Shown piece after piece: positions 15,441-34,173 of a stretch of 64,000 nt of DNA. Origin of the DNA: Taiwanofungus camphoratus (Eukaryota; Basidiomycota; Agaricomycetes; Polyporales; Taiwanofungaceae); assembly GCA_003999685.1 (NCBI GenBank), contig CP021224.1, forward strand, positions 620,001 through 684,000, given 5' to 3'. Both the position numbers and the translations under genes were made by a program. The stretch's first letter is position 1, and each line of letters opens with the position of its first letter. The notes beneath the pieces are model-generated. The model made no database searches. It was not told the DNA's origin and saw only the letters and a program-made list of their open reading frames with translations.

Positions 15441-15553
15441 CGCCGCTTCTTGAACCAGTACCACCACCATCTCGATTTAGCGCCTGTGCCCAGCATATCT
15501 AAATCCCATCGTATCCTTCCCTTTTCTTCCCCTACTGGTGCCCCTATAGCCGC

Positions 15554-17160
15554 TGATACGACCTAGGGGACCCTGGTACCTAGGGAGTGCTCCGCAACGT
15601 GGCTGGGGGTAGTGTGATAACTGTGAGGGTGTGAGGGTAGGAGCTACAACCTGTATGATACCGGGAAACCTGTATGTCTTGTTTTTGTAAGTAGGGGAGT
15701 AAGGGGTCAAGGGTCCTGCACAACAGGATCTTGTTCCTAAGTGCTATACTATCCCTAAGGCCTTGCGAGGCCCTCCGAAGTATGCGAAGTTCTTCGAGGT
15801 TTTGCGAAGCCCTTCGAAGTTTTAGCTAAATCGCGCGAGCTGACTTCGTAGATGCTGCGAAGCCCTTCTGGTTAGAGTTAGCTAAAGGGCGTAAGGTTTT
15901 TGGAGTTTGTTAGAGCGAAGTGGGCGAGGTTTGGCTAGCGTAGGAGACCTGTAGGAGAGGTCGGAGAGTTCGAGGGCGTAGAGAGATGTACTATAGCCTG
16001 TAACTAAGGCTATGGGAGGGTCGTAGGGCTATTCGTAGGACGTAGGGATAACGCAACGTGAGCCTAAGGGTATAACTAAGGCGGAGGCCCACCGGATAGG
16101 TGCTATAAGAGGTGCTGAAGGGCACAAAGTCACGGCGACTTCGTAGATCGTAGTGCGTAGTTCGGGAAGCGTAGACGTAGTTCGTAGATATATCGCGAGC
16201 GTAGACGTAGTTCAAAGGTACTGAAACGAAGCTGGGGTGGAGACTTAGGGACCTTAGGACCGTTCCTAAGGTTGTACTCGCGGCGCTTTCCTGAGATCGG
16301 AGCTACAGGGGAACTGGTATTCCCAAGAGAGAAGCGTGCACTGAGGGGTCTCTCCTGTACATAGTAAACTACCTCTGACTAAATAGGAGAGCGTGAGGTG
16401 AACTAATCTTGCGCGAAGTGATCCTTACGAGTCCGAAATGTGTACTAAAACGCATGGACTCCGAAGTGAACACGAGGGGGATAGGAACTAATTAGGAACT
16501 GAAACAGGGGAACTACGAACGGTAGAAAGGTGACCAACTTCATTCACGAGGGCGGGATGACTATCCGAGAGCAGCCATGCGCCGTGATCACCTATCTTAG
16601 TGGGCCAAGAGCGCACGAAGTTCTTAGCAGCGGGACTTGGCCTAATCGGGGTAGGAGGTGTCCTAACTGGGTGGAGGGCCATATGGATACGCCCTAGGAT
16701 GACCTTATGGCGTAGGATCGAGACCCATGGGGGTGCACAAGGCTTCCTAAGTCCAACTTCCGGAACTTCGGACCGTTTCGGAGCCTATCGGAGGTAGCTG
16801 CAATCACAAGAGCTAGGAGAGACTTAGCTAAGACTTCTTAGCTAAGCCCGGGATGAGTGACGTAGTAGATAGGACCTAGATCCAATGGAACAGTATGGGA
16901 GGGCCGGCAGTGTCCGATAGTGGACTTAGCAGGAGTTAGGGACTTCGCGTCTAGCATTCGAAATCTCGTAGTACCTCGTGTGACTTCGCAAGACTTCGTA
17001 GGGTGTTAGGAGGGTTTAGGAAGAAGAGGGGGCGTTAGGAATATTATAGGAACCTATCCCTCCTGTCGTAGGCTGTAGGAGAGTCTTAGAGTGGTCGGTT
17101 GGGGGATTAGAAAGCTCCTAAAATCGCGATTCGGGGCCCAGGAGGCTACGGGACTCATCA
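15554..17160 (-). repeat. 3' LTR of the complete Ty3-type element
   Basis: This 1,607-bp copy appears identical to the copy at 26022-27628 (constant offset of 10,468 bases). Its ends are TGAT..ATCA. It contains a dense array of CGTAG pentamers near 16145-16215 and two copies of the palindrome CTTAGCTAAG near 16824-16846. The predicted short frames inside it are chance products. Confidence 0.93.
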
Positions 17161-17173
17161 CCTCCTCCCTATT
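17161..17173 (-). other. polypurine tract next to the 3' LTR
   Basis: On the minus strand AATAGGGAGGAGG abuts the LTR terminal TGATGAG, the expected place and composition for the plus-strand primer of an LTR retrotransposon. Confidence 0.8.
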
Positions 17174-17328
17174 GAAATCCTGACTGTCCTCAGTCAGTGT
17201 GCGCGACCGTGGGAACTTGTAGCCTATCGCGTCCGATCTGCGAAGCGGGCGATATCCTGATAGAAGCTAATCGTGGGTGCCTCTTATCTTTTTCTTCCTT
17301 CTCCCCTTTTGCCTTTCTCTTCCCCATC

Positions 17329-18706
17329 ATGTTCGACGATATGGACTCTGATGGTGTTGGCCTAGCTCACAGCGATGTCCTGGCGCTCCTCGATTCTCGT
17401 CCGGAGGGCGTAGCGGAGGCCGAAGATTATCTGCGGTGGGCGAGGAACTTAGGACGTCGTGTGGTACGTATTCTCCTCGATCGCTCGATACATCGTCTTC
17501 ACTGTGTTATAGGGTAACTGGCGGGTCCTGTCCCAGGCTTCGAACGCTCCTGCCGATCCTACCTTAGAGGCCGCCATCGTCGAAGGTTTGACAGCGATCC
17601 TCCCTCTCGCGGACTCGTCGTGGATCTCGTGGGCCCGCACCAGTTTTCCTCAGTTCGCCGCTATGCTTCAAGAGCGAGATGCACAGCGCGAACTCGCCCG
17701 CGCGACCGAACGACTTCGTGCGGAGGCGGTCGAGCGCGCTGCACTTGAACGCGCTGCCCAACTTGCGGCTTCGTCTTCTGCGCCTTCGCCGGCCCCTAGT
17801 CGTACCTCATCGCGTACTCGTCGTCCCTCAGCTCGGGCCAAGGCAGCAGCTTCTACTCGCGCGGCTTCCCAGGCCAGCTCGATCATGGCCTCCGTTTCTA
17901 GCGGCCAAGTCGGCGAACTCGCCTCGTCCACGAGTTCGGGTGTCTTCGTAGGGGTCCCTCCTGCTCAGGGGAAGGATGCTGCGAAGGCGAAGGCTCCTCC
18001 GACGCCCGAAGCCCTGGCTAACATGGCGAAGGCGGCGGAGCATAGGCGAACTCATGCGAAGGTGAGTGCACGTCCTTTTCGTGACCGTTCGCGGCTTATG
18101 ATTGCTACCTAGTGCGATCGCTGCAGCACCTACACCACGGACTTTGAGTGCGAACTCCCCGCGGGCGCCATGAAGTGTGGTAAGTGCCTGCGAGAGTCGC
18201 AGGGGTGTTATTGGGGCGGATTCTCCGTAGACGGTAAGGAGCGCGGCGTGCGCGTTTCGAAGCGTGGTAGGGCTTCTCGTGCCCTCGTTAGCGCGTCATT
18301 GCTGATGTTAGGACGTCCCTTAGCTGCGGGCCAACCTCCTCAGGTGTCCCCGCCTCGCGCCCGCGAGTCCAAGAAGGCGAAGTCGACCCCTGCGCCTACG
18401 ATGTCGCTCGAGGCCTCGCTGGCCCTTAACGGCGCCGAATACTTGGACGGCCTTACCCCTGCGCATCAAGCCGTTGTCGAAGGCCTCTGGTATGACCGTG
18501 CAATGGCCGAGAGTTGCGCGATGCGTCTCGAAGACTACATCTCGGGACTTTATCGCGCCGAAACCGCCCTAACCGGTCGTACGCCTGCGCCGCTCGACTT
18601 GAGCTCTCTCCCTCTTCCTCGCCGTCGCGTCGCCGCCTCCTCTACTGATCCTGGTCCCTCCGGTGAGTCCGAGCAGGATGAGGAAGATGCCGAGGCCGAG
18701 GTTTAG
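17329..18706 (+). CDS. accessory gene carried antisense in the LTR element, six-Cys cluster
   Basis: Between the end of pol and the 3' LTR, on the strand opposite to gag-pol, three open blocks (17329-17463, 17513-18061, 18113-18706) are separated by gaps of 49 and 51 bases with GT..AG ends and stay in phase, for about 425 residues. The start is preceded by a pyrimidine-rich leader. The first part is acidic. The middle is helical and rich in Ala, Arg and Glu, with a Ser/Ala/Arg-rich linker. The third block opens with cysteines spaced C-x2-C-x8-C-x8-C-x2-C-x6-C (CDRC, KCGKC), close to a Zn2Cys6 cluster. The tail is acidic. It resembles a captured host-like DNA-binding protein rather than gag or pol. 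Function is unknown. Confidence 0.65.
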
Positions 18707-19238
18707 AAGGTGGGGGGTTCATAGTTCGTCATCTCGCCCGTTCCGTATCTGTCGCACCAACGTGCTGTATTCTCTCTCGTTGCGCGTCCCTTTGCTAGGG
18801 ACCTTTTCCAATATGTGTACAGTAGTCTGAATAAAGCGGACGCAAACGTCGTCCTTGTGAAAAGGTTCCTAAGTGCGTGAAGTAACCAAACAACACAGCG
18901 AAGAATTAGAAGACTTAGGGGGATAAAATGCGCTCATTTAGGCTCAGTAAATCATCATGGCCTTGAAGGGCTTAAGGCCCCTCGCGCAATCTTCGCTCCG
19001 CTCAGCGTTTTAGGAGCCTTTAGAACGATATCGCGACTTCGTGAGTTGAATCACTATAGTAAAAAGTAGGAGATGTTGTAAGTAAAAATTCGTAGACATT
19101 CGGGACTTCGTAGCTGTCAAAACTGAGTGGGGGCTTGTTGGGGAATGTAAAACATGACCAAAGGGTAAGCGAAAAGTAAAATGGACGTAGCGTAATCTTA
19201 GCTAAAGTCGGGGTATCGTCGATTGCTCCTCTGATTCT
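18707..19238. other. spacer between accessory gene and pol inside the LTR element
   Basis: The two genes converge here. The sequence is rich in CTTCG/CGAAG words like the LTRs. A candidate plus-strand poly(A) zone with AATAAAG lies near 18830. No frame of note is seen. Confidence 0.5.
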
Positions 19239-22200
19239 TTAGTGAGATTCGGATGGACTAGAGCCGGACTTAGGAGAGTAGGGATACGATCCTAGTTCTT
19301 CGTCATCGCCTTGGGTGGTAGTCAGCTCTAGTTCGCGAAGTCGCTCCGTCGACACGTCCAGGAGTTCGGTAGGAAGTTCGAGGGCTTTTCGCGCTAAGTA
19401 GGGGATGACTTGGAAGGCTGCCGTAGGCCTGTCGAGTACCGAACCATCCAATTCGCATAGGATATAAGCACCACCTTTGTTTCTAGATACCACGAGTACC
19501 GGGCTGAGGTAGCGAGGTCGCATCTTTCGATTTAGGGACTTTTCTATCTGTGTGTTGCGAATTAGTACTAAATCGCCCTTTTCGAAGTTGAAATCGTGGA
19601 TGGTGTGCTTATGCTTCTCTTCGAATCGCAGAGCAGCTTGTCTTCGCGCTTCGTAGACCTTCGAATGTAGTTCCGCTACCTGAGTCACCCGCTTTTGCAA
19701 TGCGATAGCTCGTCGTGCGATAAGATCGGTCGTGGATAGCATGGAGGACGGAGGAGGAAGGATATAGGTGGCCTCTACGACGTCCAAAGGGATAACAGGG
19801 TGGGTGCCAGTGACCGCGAAATAGGGCGAACATCCCATGCGCTTTCGAGTCGTGATCCTTTCGGACCAGAAGACCGAGTACGTTGCCTGAGACCATTTAG
19901 ACTCTTCGCCATCCACGGCCTTGAATAGAGCCTGCCTAACATCGAAGTGAGGCCTCTCCACCAGTCCGTTGGCACGCGAATTGTATCCGCTAATTCGGAT
20001 ATGTCGTAGCTGGTACTTCTTCGCTATGTAGTTCGTAGCTTTTACGAAGGGAGCACCGTTGTCCGTGACTATCTCCGATAGCGCGCCCCACCTACAAACA
20101 AAGTCTTCGAAGAGCCATTCTGCCAAAGCTTTAGCCGTTTCCTTGCGAAGCATCCGAAATTCGGGGTACTGGGTTAGAGAACACCGGCCTTGCACCAAGT
20201 ACCTAAATCCGTTAGAAGGGGGCATATGCATGGTATCTATGTGAACCTTTGCGAAGATCGGAGCGGGCGTAGCGACCGTAGGAGGAATTAGGATCTGCCG
20301 CACTTGGCGAATCTGGCATAGGTGGCAGCTTCGAACATACCAGGCAATGTCGATATGATGGTAGGGCCACCAAAACCGCTCCGAAATCAGCACCTTCGTA
20401 GCGTGTATTCCTCGATGCGCGACTGCATCGTGACATTCTCGGAGGATTCGTAGACGATCTGCCTGCTTAACAACTAGTTTGTGAGCTCCTTGTGGATCTT
20501 TGCGCCATAGTATGTCCTCATCGAGGAAGAATAGAAGACAGTATTTTACGAAACCTTCGTATTCTGAATCCGATAGGTTGGCAGGTCTCGCGAGGCTTCG
20601 TAGGAATTTTGCTACTAAGTCAAGTCTTGCGTCAGCTTCCTTGGCCATTTCGGATCTTGGGACGCTATCGTAGCTCTCCTCCTCCCTATTGAAACCTTGG
20701 CTGTCCTCAGCCAACTCGGAGGTGAAGGTTGGAGCTATCGGAGGTGTGGGGGTTGTGATAGGAATGTTAGAGGCGAATTCGTAAGGGAATAGGGTAGAAA
20801 TCGATGGTATAGGATGGGAAGGGGGGGCTTGGATGTGATGTAGAAACGAGTGCATTTTGTCTATCCAGTCTTCGAAGTCTTCTTCGCTGCTCTCTTCTTG
20901 ATCTCCTGGCTGGGGGGTTCGTCTTGATAGTCCATCTGGTCCATGCATCGTACCTGGTACATGTACTAGGGTGAAATGGAATGTTAGAATCGATACGATC
21001 CAGCGATTTATACTCGCGCTGGGTGCGATGTCCGGATTTTGCAACATCCCTTTGATATAGCGTGCGTCCACTTCCACTATAAGGTTCCTAACTCCGATTA
21101 GGTAGATTCGTAGTACGCGAAGTGCTCGAAACAATCCGTAGATCTCTAACTTCGGTTGCGAGAACCTCCGCTCGCGATCATTTAGGGTGATGGATCCGAA
21201 ACGATTGTAGAATCGGACTTTAGGGTTGTCCTCATCGCATTGGCAAAGGTGATAGCCAACTGCAATATAGGAGGTGTCAACCGCTAAGATCACGGGCGCA
21301 CCTGATGAATAGTTAATGGATCGGAGAGCTGGAGAGGACAGCAAAGCATCCTTAAGGTCCTCCTGCGCTGCGATTTGCGCTGGACCAAATTCGAAGGGTA
21401 CCGCCTTTCGCATTAGGCGTACTAAGGCATCTGCACGATGTGCGAAGTTTCGGATGAAGATACGGACCACTCCAATGGTTCCTAGAAAGGCTCGAACGTC
21501 AGATAGGGTCGCACAAGGTCCCCAGTTGCGTATGGCTGCAACACGAGACTCGTCCGGTAGGCGACCTTCTGGAGTACACCGATGCCCTACAACGGTGATT
21601 TCGCGGGCAATTAGAATGCTTTTAACTCCAGAAAAGGTACCTCCTGCATAGCGCATGCGTGTGACTATCCTATTGAGGTTCGTAAAATGTTCCCAAACAA
21701 ACTTTCGAATGCCTGGGTTCTCCGAAATAGGTACGAGATCGTACGAACTTTCAGGGCCTTTGACCGGAACATCGTCGATATAGGGAACCGTTAGGTGAGG
21801 AATTTCGGGCTGTAGGATGTGCGTAACATCGTCGTGGAAGATAGGGACCGAGTTGGTCCACCCCATAGGTAGAGTGACCAATCTCATAGCTCCGAAAGGT
21901 GTTTGAAATGTCGTAAGATCGCGCGAAGTCTCCGCTATCAAGCGTTCGTCATAGCCTACATATAGATCCAACATAGCACCACAAGGTCGTCCTCCGAACT
22001 GTTCTGCGAGGTGTTCGGGAGTCGGGGGAACGCCTGAGTGTTGAATCGTGACAGCGTTTAGGGGTTCCAGACTATGTACAAGGCGTAGGGACTTTCCGTC
22101 TTTCTTCACCACACAAAACCATCGTGAACGATAGGAAGAATTCGAAGGTTCGTAGACCCTAGCTGCGATCTTCTTTTTGATTATTGCGCACACTTCGTTG

Positions 22201-23093
22201 TAGATTCCGGGTGGGATAGGAATGTTCTTTTGTACCCATGGCGTGTGCGGTACTACCGGAAAGTCGATAGGAGGGAAGTACTCCGGCTTGAAGCACCCCC
22301 TTTCGGAGTCATTCCAAGCGAACGCATCAGCGTGTAGGGTCATAAAATGATGTAGTAGGTCCCTCTCTGCTGGTTGTAGGAAGTCTCCACTGTGTAGCTT
22401 GTCCGTGAGATCGTGCCGTTCTTGCGTATATCGCGAAGTAGGTTCGAAAGGTGGTGGAGTCGGTGATAGGGTAGGCATCGTCGCTAAAGGGTCGCCTTTA
22501 ATTTCGCGAATGATTCGGAATCGTTCGTCCAAAGCTCCCAGAATAGGGCGAGTCTTCAGCGCTACAGGCTTGTACTTCTTTTTCGATGCTGCAAATGTAG
22601 GAATAGGGGAAGAATCTGACAACTTAGGAAGGGATACCATCGGATTAGGAGCAAGGGAGGGTCTTCGGGCTGACTTCGTGACCTTCGTAGCGTTCCTGGG
22701 ACCTGGAATGGGGATAGAGGATATGTCTTTAGAGGCGGAAAGTGAAAGCATAGGGAGAGAATTCGGATTATCGTGTGAAAGGAAGGGAGCCTCGTGCGGT
22801 GTTGCTGCTGCTAGAAAGCCAGATAGCCACCTAGTATGATCAGCCGGACCTTCCGAGACTTTCGAAGTTTCGCTAAAATAGAGAGACTGCAGATAGCTAG
22901 ACACAGAGTTAGAGACTGATAGATAGAGCGCAGGAACAGAATTGTTATCTGCCGCATTTACAGCAGCGAAAGACACGATTTTAGGGGTATCGGATTCATA
23001 CTCAACGACCAGGGCGACCTCTCCTTGATTTCTCAAATCCTCGAAATCTAAAAACCCGATCGTAAATGATTCGAAGAGTTCGCATGGGGGCAA
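19239..23093 (-). CDS. pol block of the LTR element: RT, RNase H, integrase
   Basis: This block of 1,284 residues is a fossil-class retroelement part. It has a Ty3-type reverse transcriptase (TPFGAMRLVTLPMGWTNS and the catalytic YIDD), an RNase H (ILAVDTSYIAVGYHL; VPGTMHGPDGLSRR), the integrase zinc finger (HDAVAHRG...HLCQIRQ), the integrase core (HIDTMHMP; IVTDNGAPF; GLVERPHFDVRQ) and a C-terminal GPY/F-like part. I see no chromodomain. RT-RNaseH-integrase order places it in the Ty3/gypsy group (Metaviridae). Confidence 0.92.
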   Translation of the reverse strand: MPPCELFESFTIGFLDFEDLRNQGEVALVVEYESDTPKIVSFAAVNAADNNSVPALYLSVSNSVSSYLQSLYFSETSKVSEGPADHTRWLSGFLAAATPHEAPFLSHDNPNSLPMLSLSASKDISSIPIPGPRNATKVTKSARRPSLAPNPMVSLPKLSDSSPIPTFAASKKKYKPVALKTRPILGALDERFRIIREIKGDPLATMPTLSPTPPPFEPTSRYTQERHDLTDKLHSGDFLQPAERDLLHHFMTLHADAFAWNDSERGCFKPEYFPPIDFPVVPHTPWVQKNIPIPPGIYNEVCAIIKKKIAARVYEPSNSSYRSRWFCVVKKDGKSLRLVHSLEPLNAVTIQHSGVPPTPEHLAEQFGGRPCGAMLDLYVGYDERLIAETSRDLTTFQTPFGAMRLVTLPMGWTNSVPIFHDDVTHILQPEIPHLTVPYIDDVPVKGPESSYDLVPISENPGIRKFVWEHFTNLNRIVTRMRYAGGTFSGVKSILIAREITVVGHRCTPEGRLPDESRVAAIRNWGPCATLSDVRAFLGTIGVVRIFIRNFAHRADALVRLMRKAVPFEFGPAQIAAQEDLKDALLSSPALRSINYSSGAPVILAVDTSYIAVGYHLCQCDEDNPKVRFYNRFGSITLNDRERRFSQPKLEIYGLFRALRVLRIYLIGVRNLIVEVDARYIKGMLQNPDIAPSASINRWIVSILTFHFTLVHVPGTMHGPDGLSRRTPQPGDQEESSEEDFEDWIDKMHSFLHHIQAPPSHPIPSISTLFPYEFASNIPITTPTPPIAPTFTSELAEDSQGFNREEESYDSVPRSEMAKEADARLDLVAKFLRSLARPANLSDSEYEGFVKYCLLFFLDEDILWRKDPQGAHKLVVKQADRLRILRECHDAVAHRGIHATKVLISERFWWPYHHIDIAWYVRSCHLCQIRQVRQILIPPTVATPAPIFAKVHIDTMHMPPSNGFRYLVQGRCSLTQYPEFRMLRKETAKALAEWLFEDFVCRWGALSEIVTDNGAPFVKATNYIAKKYQLRHIRISGYNSRANGLVERPHFDVRQALFKAVDGEESKWSQATYSVFWSERITTRKRMGCSPYFAVTGTHPVIPLDVVEATYILPPPSSMLSTTDLIARRAIALQKRVTQVAELHSKVYEARRQAALRFEEKHKHTIHDFNFEKGDLVLIRNTQIEKSLNRKMRPRYLSPVLVVSRNKGGAYILCELDGSVLDRPTAAFQVIPYLARKALELPTELLDVSTERLRELELTTTQGDDEELGSYPYSPKSGSSPSESH
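20678..20710 (-). repeat. internal second copy of the polypurine tract
   Basis: This 33-base strip, read on the minus strand, differs at only three positions from the strip at 17161-17193 next to the 3' LTR, and includes the purine core AATAGGGAGGAGG unchanged. It lies in pol between RNase H and the integrase zinc finger. The position recalls central polypurine tracts of some retroelements. Confidence 0.7.
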
Positions 23094-24421
23094 CTATGAT
23101 GGTGGGCTGGTAAGAACTTTTGACGTCCTCGAGGCATCGTAGGGATGGTCGCGACTTCGCTTGTGTTCGGGCATACGATCGTGATGGTCTGCTCCTCGTT
23201 TCCGAAGTTCTTAACCACACTCTCGGTTACCACATCGAAGGGTCGGCCTAGAAGGATATTGTAGGAGGGATTGCGTATGACGTGCATCTGTAGGTACAAC
23301 ACGATGTCGCCTACTTGGAACGAGACATTTCGAACCAGTCCTAAAGAACGGTCAATACTGCCATTAGCAGACTGCATATTTAGCTGCACGGAAGGGTCGT
23401 AGATTAGCCCTAAGGCATGACAGACTTGCTCTGACATCGCAACCACTTGTGACCCAGGGTCCACGATGCATTCGATTCGCTCTTTGTTGTCGATTAGGGC
23501 TTCGATAGAACGGATAGAATTCGAGTCGCGGGCTACTATGATTTCAGAGGGTTCTTCCTTTCCGGGTACGTGTCGTAAGTACGTTTCGTAGGGGTCTGGA
23601 ATGATGGTCGAACCAGGGACAAGGGGTTCACCATGGCACGATAGTTCGGAGGTTGCTAGCGTCGTTTTAGAAGCGAGATCGTCTGAGAGTTCCGTAATTT
23701 GAGCCATATGAGTAGCCTTGGGATCCATAGGCACACGTTTAGGGGTGATAGCTTCGCGATATCGCGCACGAACATCCGGGGATATAGATAGTAGCTCCTC
23801 GGGCGTTAGTGTAACCACTGGTGTTCTCATAGATCGCGCGAATATTTCCTCTGTAAGTTTCTCCTGATGAACCGGTGTGATCGTCTTATAGGCCACGTCC
23901 TTGCCTTTATCTGCTGTAGGCTTCGGAGCTGCTGCGAAATTTCGAAGATTCGGAGGTGCGTAAGTAGCATCTCGAGCATTAGCGAAAGGATGTACTGGTG
24001 GAGCGGGCGGTGGAATGGCTGCCTGTGATGCTGGTTGGGCTGGTACGTTAGGTGTAGACGAGGCATGCTCCGATGAGTTCGTGGGCGGATCGGACGCATT
24101 CGCAGGCTTCGGAGGCGACGGCGCTGAATTAGAAGGATAATTGGATCGCCTTAGAATGGTAGGAGGGGTCTGGTTCTGCGCCTCCGCCACTGGGGCATCT
24201 TGGTTAGCAGGGGGATCCACTACTGGATGCTGAGCGCGTCCTATCGGAGGTGCGTTGGCTAAGGGTGGGTTTCTAGGATCAGACTGCGCATTAGGAGCAC
24301 CCTGCCTTCTGCGCTGGGGTACTTCCACACCATCGAAGACTTCGCGACGTCTCCGAAGTTGGTAAATCTCGTGTTCTAAAGCGGCTATACGATCCTCGGC
24401 GGATAGTGAGAATGCAGGCAC
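23048..24421 (-). CDS. protease-bearing block of the LTR element
   Basis: This 457-residue fossil-class block has a Pro/Ala/Asn-rich N-terminal half and a C-terminal aspartic protease-like fold around IVDPGSQVVAMSEQVCHALG and NILLGRPFDVV, the D-S/P-G and ILG-type hallmarks of retropepsins. It lies between gag and pol and overlaps the start of pol by 46 bases. Confidence 0.8.
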   Translation of the reverse strand: MPAFSLSAEDRIAALEHEIYQLRRRREVFDGVEVPQRRRQGAPNAQSDPRNPPLANAPPIGRAQHPVVDPPANQDAPVAEAQNQTPPTILRRSNYPSNSAPSPPKPANASDPPTNSSEHASSTPNVPAQPASQAAIPPPAPPVHPFANARDATYAPPNLRNFAAAPKPTADKGKDVAYKTITPVHQEKLTEEIFARSMRTPVVTLTPEELLSISPDVRARYREAITPKRVPMDPKATHMAQITELSDDLASKTTLATSELSCHGEPLVPGSTIIPDPYETYLRHVPGKEEPSEIIVARDSNSIRSIEALIDNKERIECIVDPGSQVVAMSEQVCHALGLIYDPSVQLNMQSANGSIDRSLGLVRNVSFQVGDIVLYLQMHVIRNPSYNILLGRPFDVVTESVVKNFGNEEQTITIVCPNTSEVATIPTMPRGRQKFLPAHHHSCPHANSSNHLRSGF

Positions 24422-24478
24422 ATTTAGGCGATTGTCGATTTCGAATAGGAGCTGTGGGGAGGAATTCGTGCCATTTCG

Positions 24479-25981
24479 TCAATGATATTCGTAAAGCCTA
24501 TCGCGAATCGTACGTCCTGGGATCGTTCTGGGTACAAAATTTCCATTTGGCAGCACTATCTTTCCATCTGGGTTGCGCTTGCACTTGCCATCCTTGATGT
24601 CTTGCTCGATGTGCTTGCAACACCTAGTGCAGCAGTCCAAGTCCCCGCAATAGTGACAGTACTGGCCTTCTACATGAGTGTGCTCGCCGCGCGAGCTGTC
24701 CAATCGAGGGGGTCGCTGGTTCGCAAGAACAGGAGCTAGCGCACTGGTTACGGACTTCGTGAGGATCTCTGCGAACGTCTGTAGATCCTCTATCTTTAGC
24801 GATGAGCCCCCCACGGGCATGGTAGTGGTCGAAGTAGTTACAGTCGTAGCAGAGGTAAGAGTCGTAGAAGTACCAAGGAGTACGAACTTTGCTGCGCTAT
24901 GTAGCTGGTCCAAGGTGTAGGGATCATCGGGTAAGTGATCAGGGAACTTTAGCTGTAACCTAGTAGACACGCGAGCCCATAGCGAAGGCTGGAAGGCCCT
25001 CGTGAAAGCACGGCTTTGCTCGATAGTAGACAACCTATTTTTCGAAATTAGGTACTTCGTGATGGCATAAAACTCACGATAGAAGCTTCCTAAGTCTGCC
25101 GCATTGTTGATTCCAATCCTAGCACGTTCTCCTATCAACTGATCCAAGTCAGACATAGACCACATTCTATCGTCCTCTGTGCCTGGGTAGAGGCTTCTAA
25201 TCTTCTTCTTGAAGTCCTCGTAGGTCTTCGTGACATCGGAACACTCAGGGAGGGACTCCCATAGGTCCGAAACATCGATAGGAGGGTAGCGAGTAGTCCA
25301 GTGTTTCTTCGTCGCCTCATCCGCTATCTGGCAGCGGACAAAAAGTGACTCTAAGTCCTGGAAATACCTTCGGATGGTCCTAGGCTGGTCAGGATCGAAG
25401 GTAGGGGATGTACGATCTCCTCGAGGCGGCATGAGTGGAGGTGCGTTCATGGTTGACACAGAAATAGGATTTAGGGGATTAGCTAAAATGGGTGCGGTCA
25501 GAGATGGGTTCGAAGCTGAGTTGATGCTAGCCGAAGAAGATTGGGTCGTAGAAGCGTCGGAAAGTGTAATAGAAGGAATCGGAGGGGAACGCGAAGCTGA
25601 TGGGAGCGTAGAGGATAGCTGAGGGGATGCCGGTAAATGGACTAAGATAGGGTCAGACGCTGAAGAAGGACCGCTTCCTTCGGAGGTGTTAGGAAGCTCA
25701 GGGGACGTGGACTGAGGTTCGAAGTCCTCAATTGGTGAGTCTTCGGACGTGGTAAGCGTGTCTAGAGACCCTTCAAAAAGAGCCTCAAAGTCGGGGGTCA
25801 ATTCGGAAGATTCGAGTGTAGAAATGATATCGGAGGGGATAGTCGTAGGTGTTCGCGAAGAGGTGCTTCGTGGAAGGCCTGCTTGAGTATAGTAACGATA
25901 GCCGACCTGAAAGAACTCGGATAGTAACTGATCGCTGTTTCTCGGAGAGGACTGGTTAGACGTAGGATGATCTGAAGGCAA
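24479..25981 (-). CDS. gag block of the LTR element
   Basis: This 500-residue fossil-class block has a Ser/Pro/Thr-rich N-terminus, a helical capsid-like middle (FDPDQPRTIRRYFQDLESLF, IKRS-type helices up to near residue 360) and a Cys/His knuckle-like cluster near the end (CHYCGDLDCCTRCCKH). Its position just inside the 5' LTR fits gag. Confidence 0.8.
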   Translation of the reverse strand: MPSDHPTSNQSSPRNSDQLLSEFFQVGYRYYTQAGLPRSTSSRTPTTIPSDIISTLESSELTPDFEALFEGSLDTLTTSEDSPIEDFEPQSTSPELPNTSEGSGPSSASDPILVHLPASPQLSSTLPSASRSPPIPSITLSDASTTQSSSASINSASNPSLTAPILANPLNPISVSTMNAPPLMPPRGDRTSPTFDPDQPRTIRRYFQDLESLFVRCQIADEATKKHWTTRYPPIDVSDLWESLPECSDVTKTYEDFKKKIRSLYPGTEDDRMWSMSDLDQLIGERARIGINNAADLGSFYREFYAITKYLISKNRLSTIEQSRAFTRAFQPSLWARVSTRLQLKFPDHLPDDPYTLDQLHSAAKFVLLGTSTTLTSATTVTTSTTTMPVGGSSLKIEDLQTFAEILTKSVTSALAPVLANQRPPRLDSSRGEHTHVEGQYCHYCGDLDCCTRCCKHIEQDIKDGKCKRNPDGKIVLPNGNFVPRTIPGRTIRDRLYEYH

Positions 25982-25996
25982 TGAAATCTTGACTGC

Positions 25997-26017
25997 TCCC
26001 CCTCGCGGTGGGCTCCA
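25997..26017 (-). other. putative primer-binding site
   Basis: Four bases inside the 5' LTR the minus strand reads TGGAGCCCACCGCGAGG. A TGG start complements the CCA end of a tRNA. I could not assign the tRNA by eye. Confidence 0.5.
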
Positions 26018-26021
26018 GAAA

Positions 26022-27628
26022 TGATACGACCTAGGGGACCCTGGTACCTAGGGAGTGCTCCGCAACGTGGCTGGGGGTAGTGTGATAACTGTGAGGGTGT
26101 GAGGGTAGGAGCTACAACCTGTATGATACCGGGAAACCTGTATGTCTTGTTTTTGTAAGTAGGGGAGTAAGGGGTCAAGGGTCCTGCACAACAGGATCTT
26201 GTTCCTAAGTGCTATACTATCCCTAAGGCCTTGCGAGGCCCTCCGAAGTATGCGAAGTTCTTCGAGGTTTTGCGAAGCCCTTCGAAGTTTTAGCTAAATC
26301 GCGCGAGCTGACTTCGTAGATGCTGCGAAGCCCTTCTGGTTAGAGTTAGCTAAAGGGCGTAAGGTTTTTGGAGTTTGTTAGAGCGAAGTGGGCGAGGTTT
26401 GGCTAGCGTAGGAGACCTGTAGGAGAGGTCGGAGAGTTCGAGGGCGTAGAGAGATGTACTATAGCCTGTAACTAAGGCTATGGGAGGGTCGTAGGGCTAT
26501 TCGTAGGACGTAGGGATAACGCAACGTGAGCCTAAGGGTATAACTAAGGCGGAGGCCCACCGGATAGGTGCTATAAGAGGTGCTGAAGGGCACAAAGTCA
26601 CGGCGACTTCGTAGATCGTAGTGCGTAGTTCGGGAAGCGTAGACGTAGTTCGTAGATATATCGCGAGCGTAGACGTAGTTCAAAGGTACTGAAACGAAGC
26701 TGGGGTGGAGACTTAGGGACCTTAGGACCGTTCCTAAGGTTGTACTCGCGGCGCTTTCCTGAGATCGGAGCTACAGGGGAACTGGTATTCCCAAGAGAGA
26801 AGCGTGCACTGAGGGGTCTCTCCTGTACATAGTAAACTACCTCTGACTAAATAGGAGAGCGTGAGGTGAACTAATCTTGCGCGAAGTGATCCTTACGAGT
26901 CCGAAATGTGTACTAAAACGCATGGACTCCGAAGTGAACACGAGGGGGATAGGAACTAATTAGGAACTGAAACAGGGGAACTACGAACGGTAGAAAGGTG
27001 ACCAACTTCATTCACGAGGGCGGGATGACTATCCGAGAGCAGCCATGCGCCGTGATCACCTATCTTAGTGGGCCAAGAGCGCACGAAGTTCTTAGCAGCG
27101 GGACTTGGCCTAATCGGGGTAGGAGGTGTCCTAACTGGGTGGAGGGCCATATGGATACGCCCTAGGATGACCTTATGGCGTAGGATCGAGACCCATGGGG
27201 GTGCACAAGGCTTCCTAAGTCCAACTTCCGGAACTTCGGACCGTTTCGGAGCCTATCGGAGGTAGCTGCAATCACAAGAGCTAGGAGAGACTTAGCTAAG
27301 ACTTCTTAGCTAAGCCCGGGATGAGTGACGTAGTAGATAGGACCTAGATCCAATGGAACAGTATGGGAGGGCCGGCAGTGTCCGATAGTGGACTTAGCAG
27401 GAGTTAGGGACTTCGCGTCTAGCATTCGAAATCTCGTAGTACCTCGTGTGACTTCGCAAGACTTCGTAGGGTGTTAGGAGGGTTTAGGAAGAAGAGGGGG
27501 CGTTAGGAATATTATAGGAACCTATCCCTCCTGTCGTAGGCTGTAGGAGAGTCTTAGAGTGGTCGGTTGGGGGATTAGAAAGCTCCTAAAATCGCGATTC
27601 GGGGCCCAGGAGGCTACGGGACTCATCA
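26022..27628 (-). repeat. 5' LTR of the complete Ty3-type element
   Basis: This 1,607-bp copy has TGAT..ATCA ends and appears identical to the other LTR of the element. It is followed at 27629-27632 by the CCGC duplication and then by LINE sequence. Confidence 0.93.
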
Positions 27629-27675
27629 CCGCTGTTGGTCTTAGGACTGATGGTGCACCCTCCTCGTCGAGTGCA

Positions 27676-29752: not shown

Positions 29753-31449
29753 TGATGAGTCCCGTAGCCTCCTGGGCCCCGAATCGCGATTTTAGGAGCT
29801 TTCTAATCCCCCAACCGACCACTCTAAGACTCTCCTACAGCCTACGACAGGAGGGATAGGTTCCTATAATATTCCTAACGCCCCCTCTTCTTCCTAAACC
29901 CTCCTAACACCCTACGAAGTCTTGCGAAGTCACACGAGGTGCTACGAGATTTTGAATGCTAGACACGAAGTCCCTAACTCCTGCTAAGTCCACTATCGGA
30001 CACTGCCGGCCCTCCCATACTGTTCCATTGGACCTAGGTCCTATCTACTACGTCACTCATCCCGGGCTTAGCTAAGAAGTCTTAGCTAAGTCTCTCCTAG
30101 CTCTTGTGATTGCAGCTACCTTCGATAGGCTCCGAAACGGTCCGAAGTTCCGGAAGTTGGACTTAGGAAGCCTTGTGCACCCCCATGGGTCTCGATCCTA
30201 CGCCATAAGGTCATCCTAGGGCGTATCCATATGGCCCTCCACCCAGTTAGGACACCTCCTACCCCGATTAGGCCAAGTCCCGCTGCTAAGAACTTCGTGC
30301 GCTCTTAGCCCGCTAAGATAGGTGATCACGGCGCATGGCTGCTCTCGGATAGTCATCCCACCCTCGTGAATGAAGTTGGTCACCTTTCTACCGTTCGTAG
30401 TTCCCCTGTTTCAGTTCCTAATTAGTTCCTATTCCCCTCGTGTTCACTTCGGAGTCCATGCGTTTTAGTACACATTTCGGACTCGTAAGGATCACTTCGC
30501 GCAAGATTAGTTCACCTCACGCTCTCCTATTTAGTCAGAGGTAGTTTACTATGTACAGGAGAGACCCCTCAGTGTACGCTTCTCTCTTTGGAATACCAGT
30601 TCCCCTGTAGCTCCGATCTCAGGAAAGCGCCGCGAGTACAACCTTAGGAACGGTCCCAAGGTCCCTAAGTCTCCACCCCAGCTCCGTTTCAGTACCTTTG
30701 AACTACGTCTACGCTCGCGATATATCTACGAACTACGTCTACGCTTCCCGAACTACGCACTACGATCTACGAAGTCGCCGTGACTTTGTGCCCTTCAGCA
30801 CCTCTTATAGCACCTATCCGGTGGGCCTCCGCCTTAGTTATACCCTTAGGCTCACGTTGCGTCATCCCTACGTCCTACGAATAACCCTACGACTCCCCCA
30901 TAGCCTTCATTACAGGCTATAGTACATCTCTCTACGCCCTCGAACTCTCCGACCCACACCTCGAAGTCATCAGACACTTCAGAGCTTCCAGCAACCTCGT
31001 TCCCTCATTCCTATTCCAAGTATTAGCTCTCCGAACCATCCAACCTCTCCTACAAGTCTCCTACGCCAGCCAAACCTCGCCCACCTCGCTCTAACAAACC
31101 TCTAAGCCTTACACCCTTTAGCTAACTCTAGCTAAAAGGACTTCGCAGCATCTACGAAGTCAGCTCGCGCGATTTAGCTGAAACTTCGAAGGACTTCACA
31201 GAATCTCGAAGGACTTCGTGTACTTCGGAGGGCCTTGCAAGGCCTTAGGGATAGTATAGCACTTAGGAACAAGATCCTGTTGTGCAGGACCCTTGACCCC
31301 TTACTCCCCTACTTACAAAAACAAGACATACAGGTTTCCCGGTATCATACAGGTTGTAGCTCCTACCCTCACACCCTCACAGTTATCACACTACCCCCAG
31401 CCACGTTGCGGAGCACTCCCTAGGTACCAGGGTCCCCTAGGTCGTATCA
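29753..31449 (+). repeat. solo LTR of the Ty3-type family, copy A
   Basis: This fossil-class solo LTR of 1,697 bp has TGATGAG..GTATCA ends and GCGT on both sides (29749-29752 and 31450-31453). It is about 90 bases longer than the LTRs of the complete element, shares that extra stretch with copy B, and lies in the opposite orientation to the complete element. It interrupts the LINE between the RT entry and fingers. Confidence 0.92.
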
Positions 31450-32475: not shown

Positions 32476-34173
32476 TGATGAGTCCCGTAGCCTCCTGGGC
32501 CCCAAATCGCAATTTTAGGAGCTTTCTAATCTCCCAACCGACCACTCTAAGACTCTCCTACAGCCTACGACAGGAGGGATAGGTTCCTATAATATTCCTA
32601 ACACCCCCTCTCCTTCCTAAACCCTCCTAACACCCTATGAAGTCTTGCGAAGTCACACGAGGTGCTACGAGATTTCGAATGCTAGACACGAAGTCCCTAA
32701 CTCCTGCTAAGTCCACTATCGGACACTGCCGGCCCTCCCATACTGTTCCATTGGATCTAGGTCCTATCTACTACGTCACTCATTCCGGGCTTAGCTAAGA
32801 AGTCTTAGCTAAGTCTCTCCTAGCTCTTGTGATTGCAGCTACCTCCGATAGGCTCCGAAATGGTCCAAAGTTCCGGAAGTTGGACTTAGGAAGCCTTGTG
32901 CACCCCCATGGGTCTCGATCCTATGCCATAAGGTCATCCTAGGGCGTACCCATATGACCCTCCACCCAGTTAGGGCACCTCCTGCCCCGATTAGGCCAAG
33001 TCCTGCTGCTAAGAACTTTGTGCGCTCTTAGCCCACTAAGATAGGTGATCACAGCGCATGGCTGCTCTCGGATAGTCATCCCGCCCTCGTGAATGAACTT
33101 GGTCACCTTTCTACCGTACGTAGTTCCCCTGTTTCAGTTCCTAATTAGTTCCTATCCTCCTCATGTTCACTTCGGAGTCCATGCGCTTTAGTACACATTT
33201 CGGACTCGTAAGGATCGCTTCGCGCAAGATTAGTTCACCTCACGTTCCCCTATTTAGTCAGAGGTAGTTTACTATGTAAGAGAGAGACCCCTCAGTGCAC
33301 GCTTCTCTCTTTGGAATACCAGTTCCCCTGTAGCTTCGATCTCAGGAAAGCGCCGCGAGTACAACCTTAGGAACGGTCCTAAGGTCCCTAAGTCTCCACC
33401 CCAGCTTCGTTTCAGTACCTTTGAACTACGTCTACGCTCGCGATATATCTACGAACCATGTCTACGCTTCCCGAACTACGCACTATGATCTACGAAGTCG
33501 CCGTGACTTTGCGCCCTTCAGCACCTCTTATAGCACCTATCCGGTGGGCCTCCGCCTTAGTTATACCCTTAGGCTCACGTTGCATCATCCCTACGTCCTA
33601 CGAATAACCCTACGACTCCCCCATAGCCTTCATTACAGGCTATAGTACATCTCTCTACGCCCTCGAACTCTCCGACCCACACCTCGAAGTCATCAGACAC
33701 TTCAGAGCTTCCAGCAACCTCGTTCCCTCATTCCTATTCCAAGTATTAGCTCTCCGAACCATCCAACCTCTCCTACAAGTCTCCTACGCCAGCCAAACCT
33801 CGCCCACCTCGCTCTAACAAACCTCTAAGCCTTACACCCTTTAGCTAACTCTAGCTAAAAGGACTTCGCAGCATCTACGAAGTCAGCTCGCGCGATTTAG
33901 CTGAAACTTCGAAGGACTTCACAGAATCTCGAAGGACTTCGTGTACTTCGGAGGGCCTTGCAAGGCCTTAGGGATAGTATAGCACTTAGGAACAAGATCC
34001 TGTTGTGCAGGACCCTTGACCCCTTACTCCCCTACTTACAAAAACAAGACATACAGGTTTCCCGGTATCATACAGGTTGTAGCTCCTACCCTCACACCCT
34101 CACAGTTATCACACTACCCCACAGCCACGTTACGGAGCACTCCCTAGATACCAGGGTCCCCTAGGTCGTATCA
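32476..34173 (+). repeat. solo LTR of the Ty3-type family, copy B
   Basis: This fossil-class solo LTR of 1,698 bp is flanked by GCGG (32472-32475 and 34174-34177). It belongs to the same long subtype as copy A, with a modest number of differences from it. Its flanks differ from those of copy A, so the two inserted separately. Confidence 0.92.

Follow-up and report, generated by a model that had tools for sequence, protein, structure and literature searches.

Genes in antisense orientation between pol and the 3′ LTR have been reported from several plant families and from the Boty element of Botrytis, and are described there as being of unknown function (PMC7264820, in the extract available), so the position is less uncommon than the original prediction for the present locus had it. 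The plant aORFs (Grande gene23, RIRE2, Retand and PvRetro13) are reported to be present in most copies per family and to be common to several families. For maize Grande gene23 a nuclear location and an own antisense promoter have been reported, and HTLV has an antisense promoter in its 3′ LTR (PMC7264820). The fungal case is brtn, the additional antisense gene of Boty, located between pol and the 3′ LTR (PMC7264820) and also named in PMC8365987. Retrotransposon antisense non-coding RNAs are known as well (PMC7264820). Among the matches listed in our literature search there was no fungal or agaricomycete gene of this kind besides Boty brtn. The latter was reportedly described by Zhao et al. in 2011, in Botrytis cinerea and Sclerotinia sclerotiorum.

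The window analysed here is a stretch of 64,000 nucleotides from the basidiomycete Taiwanofungus camphoratus (contig CP021224.1, positions 620,001 to 684,000). It holds a complete Ty3-type LTR element on the minus strand, at 15554-27628, that hosts an antisense gene (Table 1). The element has LTRs, a protease, an RT-RNase H part preceding the integrase and a target duplication, as expected of the Ty3 type; in the Pfam matches within pol, RNase H (570-703) precedes the integrase zinc domain (876-931), and CCGC stands at both outer flanks (15550-15553 and 27629-27632). The gag-like frame gave no match in the Pfam search, and by eye it has a cysteine-rich stretch near its end. As in an aORF-3R (antisense additional ORF), a coding frame antisense to gag-pol lies between pol and the 3′ LTR. 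The two LTRs are identical over 1,607 bp, so the insertion is very recent and the element is as young as had been proposed. Two solo LTRs of the same family lie in the opposite orientation at 29753-31449 (flanks ACGC) and 32476-34173 (flanks CCGC), adjoining frames that by eye resemble a LINE-type element.

Table 1. Features of the Ty3-type element and its antisense gene, in window coordinates.
Feature	Position	Strand	Basis or remark
3′ LTR, 1,607 bp	15554..17160	-	forms a mismatch-free direct repeat with 26022-27628; lies upstream of the antisense gene
Polypurine tract beside 3′ LTR	17161..17174	-	CCTCCTCCCTATTG on the + strand
Leader, 168 bp, LTR to ATG	17161..17328	+	position; CT-rich stretch at its end (by eye)
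7-bp hairpin with AGGA loop, adjoining the polypurine tract	17180..17197	-	stem comparison across sites
Exon 1, 45 codons	17329..17463	+	splice model
Intron 1, 49 nt	17464..17512	+	GT-AG; diversity 0.061 against 0.022-0.035 in exons
Exon 2, 183 codons	17513..18061	+	W-x2-W-x5-P helical domain and long helix
Intron 2, 51 nt	18062..18112	+	GT-AG; ends immediately 5′ of the first cysteine; place common to sister families
Exon 3a, six-cysteine cluster, then Y and W or F	18113..18266	+	aligned sequences
Probable intron 3, 57 nt, in frame	18267..18323	+	GT-AG (GTAGGG...CTTAG); diversity 0.0585
Exon 3b, C-terminal part with acidic tail	18324..18706	+	stop at 18704-18706
pol (RT, RNase H, integrase)	19239..23093	-	Pfam Integrase_H2C2, RT_RNaseH_2, RT_RNaseH
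Second polypurine tract and hairpin inside pol, candidate central polypurine tract	20676..20714	-	repeated sequence
Protease frame	23048..24421	-	Pfam Asp_protease_2, gag-asp_proteas
gag-like frame, start codon tentative	24479..25981	-	position; matches in L021, L023, L024, L027
5′ LTR	26022..27628	-	direct repeat partner of 15554-17160; zero mismatch over 1,607 bp

The spliced-looking gene of 425 residues that had been predicted, antisense to gag-pol and between pol and the 3′ LTR, was reproduced by our splice model. When 17464-17512 and 18062-18112 are spliced out, 425 codons remain on the + strand, from the ATG at 17329 to the stop ending at 18706. This is the longest open model; five other choices of AG are also open (394-417 codons) and the rest are broken. 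The two introns originally proposed are both present as GT-AG gaps; a third, at 18267-18323, was missed. The sequences make this third intron probable, in which case the protein has 406 aa. Its diversity resembles that of the other introns (47 copies), there is a stop inside it in L010, L012 and L013, and an intron is found at the homologous place in L021, L022, L024, L027 and L028. Its excess of shared changes (10 of its 57 sites, compared with 139 of 1221) is not significant alone (p=0.20), and the homologue L016 is readable through at this place, which counts against a third intron. For the introns, 34 of 157 sites have shared changes, against 139 of 1221 in exons (p 0.0007), and there is no enrichment in single-copy changes (17, against 108 in exons, p 0.46). 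Counting the probable third, there are three introns in the window family and four in the L021 model. We would expect the antisense promoter in the leader (17161..17328) or in the LTR.

The polypurine tract beside the 3′ LTR recurs identically or almost identically in L009-L013 and L015, with a variant in L021, L023 and L026. As for the hairpins, stems of at least 5 bp around TCCT occur just twice among the 307 TCCT in the window, namely at the two sites in Table 1. Over 21 sites, six of them distinct, the loop is constant and six of the seven pairs are altered on both sides, in a comparison of sites chosen for a stem of at least 5 bp, with loci without a stem left out of the count.

The cysteine pattern seen at the outset, C-x2-C-x8-C-x8-C-x2-C-x6-C, is indeed there, and its six cysteines are invariant in 17 aligned sequences and unchanged in 47 of 47 close copies. 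Further invariants of the 17 are one glycine, GCY around the last cysteine and one serine; the alignment leaves out L019 and L020, which have stops, and L017 and L018, in which the cluster is missing. In exon 2, W37, W40 and P46 (W-x2-W-x5-P) are invariant in nine aligned sequences, one of them partial. The AlphaFold2 model of this exon has helices at 16-32 and 35-44 and a long helix at 46-88, with a pLDDT of 85-97 for residues 21-90 and of 69.8 overall; that of the cysteine cluster (pLDDT 48) is unusable.

Zn2Cys6 factors follow the spacing C-x2-C-x6-C-x5..12-C-x2-C-x6..8-C. The cluster is like that of the Zn2Cys6 family (PF00172) in its six cysteines and two C-x2-C pairs, and its remaining spacings fall within the allowed range, but the spacing between the second and third cysteines is 8 instead of 6, the profile is not matched and the cluster is internal to the protein. 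We rejected this assignment on the profiles and on the spacing, which is two residues off in all 17 aligned sequences. PF00172 was matched neither by the 17 members up to E 10 nor by exon 3 up to E 1, in searches where the HMMER filters drop most weak matches. More generally, we recognised no family for the protein in Pfam, NCBIfam or the PDB. Foldseek with the exon 2 model found no relative, with two matches at E 9.2, and the cluster profile was without a match in the PDB up to E 10. Three RAP1 chains returned for exon 3 by a PDB sequence search (E 1.7-1.9) were taken as chance. In IMG/VR the pattern was met in 10 stretches, none of which was confirmed, and a bacterial promoter scan and a tRNA scan of the DNA gave nothing useful.

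A search of the genome with the exon 3 protein, in which all 116 candidates were scored, returned 117 matches. Of these, 61 have at least 90% identity (59 of them free of stops in exon 3); the others include several pieces at 53-82%, L016 at 39%, and about 45 short matches at 27-50%, mostly over the cysteine cluster. One match, at C8:1441391 (E 0.004), is false and belongs by eye to a glutathione S-transferase-like gene. After merging, 114 gene loci were counted, a few of which are weak matches and one false. A corresponding search with part of the RT, with 150 of 268 candidates scored, gave at least 121 matches. Within that coverage, 89 of the 114 gene loci are accompanied by an opposite-strand RT match 1.5-7 kb away and 25 have none nearby; conversely, the gene is present in most element copies, being borne by 89 of 111 RT loci and missing from 22. 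On contig C10 of the same genome, gene copies at 627926, 638394, 648863 and 659331 run in one direction at a spacing of 10,468-10,469 bases. This equals one LTR plus the internal part, so they apparently form a tandem array of elements that share LTRs.

Twenty loci of 10 kb each were compared for sister families. Recurrence in related elements, proposed earlier as a check, is found: in ten of ten diverged loci (L019-L028), with pol pieces 55-79% identical to those of the window, the gene adjoins pol in antisense, and in all ten an intron ends directly 5′ of the first cysteine. The lay-out of the window, with a long pol match, is also seen in L009, L011 and L015, and part of pol in L012, L017 and L018; L010, L013 and L014 have no close pol in the expected place and are presumably rearranged. 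Older element copies (L010, L011, L012 and L015) hold one to three stops each, at 81-84% DNA identity. Over 12 loci the gene and pol distances correlate at 0.95, a value that owes largely to two clear clades and that 0 of 5000 permutations reached. The amount of change in the cluster is two to three times that in pol. This joint divergence goes against the capture of a host gene as a recent event, which had been part of the original reading. The insertion, with its identical LTRs, is very young; the gene is old.

Selection was studied in 47 gap-free copies, including the window copy, drawn from the 61 exon 3 matches of at least 90% identity; left out were 12 copies, L009 (kept with the older copies) and L051 (a 15-nt gap). 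Each change was assigned to a class by the number of copies bearing it, and CpG transitions were treated separately when the expected counts were derived. Single-copy changes are close to expectation, with 75 amino-acid, 39 silent and 2 stop changes (expected 73, 41 and 3; ratio 1.07). Changes shared by at least two copies comprise 46 amino-acid, 93 silent and 3 stop changes (expected 89, 50 and 3; ratio 0.29), and those in at least five copies 9, 48 and none (expected 36, 20 and 1; ratio 0.10). The single and shared classes differ with a Fisher p of 3.3e-7, which is a guide only because the copies are related. With CpG transitions removed, single changes are 22 amino-acid or stop to 16 silent, and shared ones 12 to 52. 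The ratio for shared changes is 0.29 in this frame and, as expected, 0.34 in the reverse frame that shares its third positions; it is 1.7-2.5 in the remaining four. In eight copies, amino-acid and silent shared changes number 5 and 30 in the gene and 5 and 16 in the 3′ part of pol.

Of the 47 copies, 37 retain an intact frame together with every splice site; nine others have a stop and one lacks the GT of the probable intron 3. Shared stops are not below expectation (3 seen, 2.8 expected). All three are CGA to TGA, each in two to three copies, and they are probably repeated hits since the pairs are mostly not nearest relatives, although the stop of L029 and L048 may be inherited. We read the CpG changes in two to four copies, which at 33 amino-acid or stop to 24 silent have a near neutral ratio, as repeated hits too. 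CpG transitions make up 89 of the 135 changes seen in one copy and 87 of the 179 seen in two or more, and their share of the single-copy changes suggests that the elements are methylated in the host. Neutral single changes together with silent-biased shared ones are the pattern of a working gene in a transposing lineage. The earlier proposal of a retained coding gene that may be under selection is upheld, both by the intact copies and by shared changes that run at 0.29 of expectation rather than at a neutral rate. At the DNA level, neither of the outcomes named beforehand as refuting it has come about. From sequence alone, then, we can show purifying selection on the protein sequence in the transposing lineages, and a gene that diverged along with pol.

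One homologue stands alone. L016, on contig C3 at about 1,164,016-1,165,346, encodes a stop-free product of 408 aa of the same build and has introns 1 and 2; its exon 3 is 39% identical to that of the window gene. Within its 10-kb locus (C3:1158128-1168127) we detected neither pol (at E 1e-3) nor any repeat of at least 30 bases, and its exon 3, used as a query against the genome, retrieved no other close copy. One neighbour is an FG-repeat frame of 691 aa that has no Pfam match and by eye resembles a nucleoporin; the other is a frame with an RNA12 match below the Pfam cut-off. Given that older element copies at 81-84% identity already hold stops, an intact frame at 39% suggests use. L016 could be either the donor or a domesticated descendant of the element gene. 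That the host took the accessory gene into its own service, acting through L016 on the same targets and so controlling these elements, strikes us as improbable; if it were true, L016 would be a regulator common to parasite and host.

The antisense frame probably encodes a genuine accessory protein of the element and is not open by chance: the selection and the recurrence are hard to reconcile with a chance frame, with a passenger or with an antisense RNA alone. We tentatively favour, at a little less than an even chance, an old conserved accessory gene of one Ty3-type clade whose spliced product is a nuclear, nucleic-acid-binding regulator of its own element. The helical pairing part, the cysteine cluster and the acidic end suggest such a regulator, and the lay-out is reminiscent of HBZ, an antisense regulator of HTLV, and of Grande gene23 with its reported nuclear product. 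The antisense transcript would start in the leader or the 3′ LTR and then be spliced; its product would be a nuclear protein that pairs via the long helix, and the six-cysteine cluster would bind nucleic acid and regulate the element's own expression. Because selection is seen in the source lineages despite dozens of possible suppliers in trans, the protein may chiefly benefit its own encoding copy, or few copies may be active at once. It is rather unlikely that the protein is instead a replication helper, joining Gag particles or chaperoning RNA or cDNA through the cysteine cluster without regulating transcription. A cysteine cluster with a helical part would also suit an assembly or RNA-binding factor, and source-lineage selection agrees with a product that remains with its own RNA; yet expression would be separate from that of Gag, using a promoter and introns of its own on the other strand, and gag has its own cysteine-rich stretch.

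Unlikely, too, is an anti-silencing factor that removes or blocks host silencing of the element by DNA methylation or small RNA. The CpG transitions, in single and shared changes alike, are consistent with methylated copies, so that silencing pressure may exist, and a helper acting on its own locus would yield the selection observed. However, neither domain nor homology points there, and the CpG decay shows many copies to be unprotected. An antisense RNA as the functional product has the precedent of the non-coding RNAs mentioned above, but we consider it very unlikely: amino-acid changes are avoided among the shared changes in this frame, and the cysteines and one intron place are conserved across families. 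Hardly credible is the recent chance capture of a host gene, carried since as a passenger; an intact stand-alone homologue does exist in the genome, but the gene sits in the same place in diverged families, descends jointly with pol and is under purifying selection. Comparison of copies is enough here to reveal such an antisense protein as selected in spreading lineages and neutral after insertion. A conserved, mutable cysteine core and a stand-alone relative in the same genome make the function of such genes directly testable.

HBZ of HTLV-1 is a spliced antisense gene near the 3′ LTR, with a helical pairing part and an acidic stretch. Its lay-out resembles that of the window gene, but HBZ is a bZIP protein and no sequence relation is claimed. 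The gene brtn is alike in belonging to a fungal element and in its antisense orientation in the same place, as compared by its available description only. The plant aORFs match in place and orientation, again by description; they differ in that no six-cysteine cluster is mentioned for them in the available extract and that PvRetro13 has an SMC domain (PMC7264820). What is new with respect to the known antisense genes, brtn being compared by description, is a six-cysteine protein without a recognised family, several introns, measured selection and a stand-alone relative.
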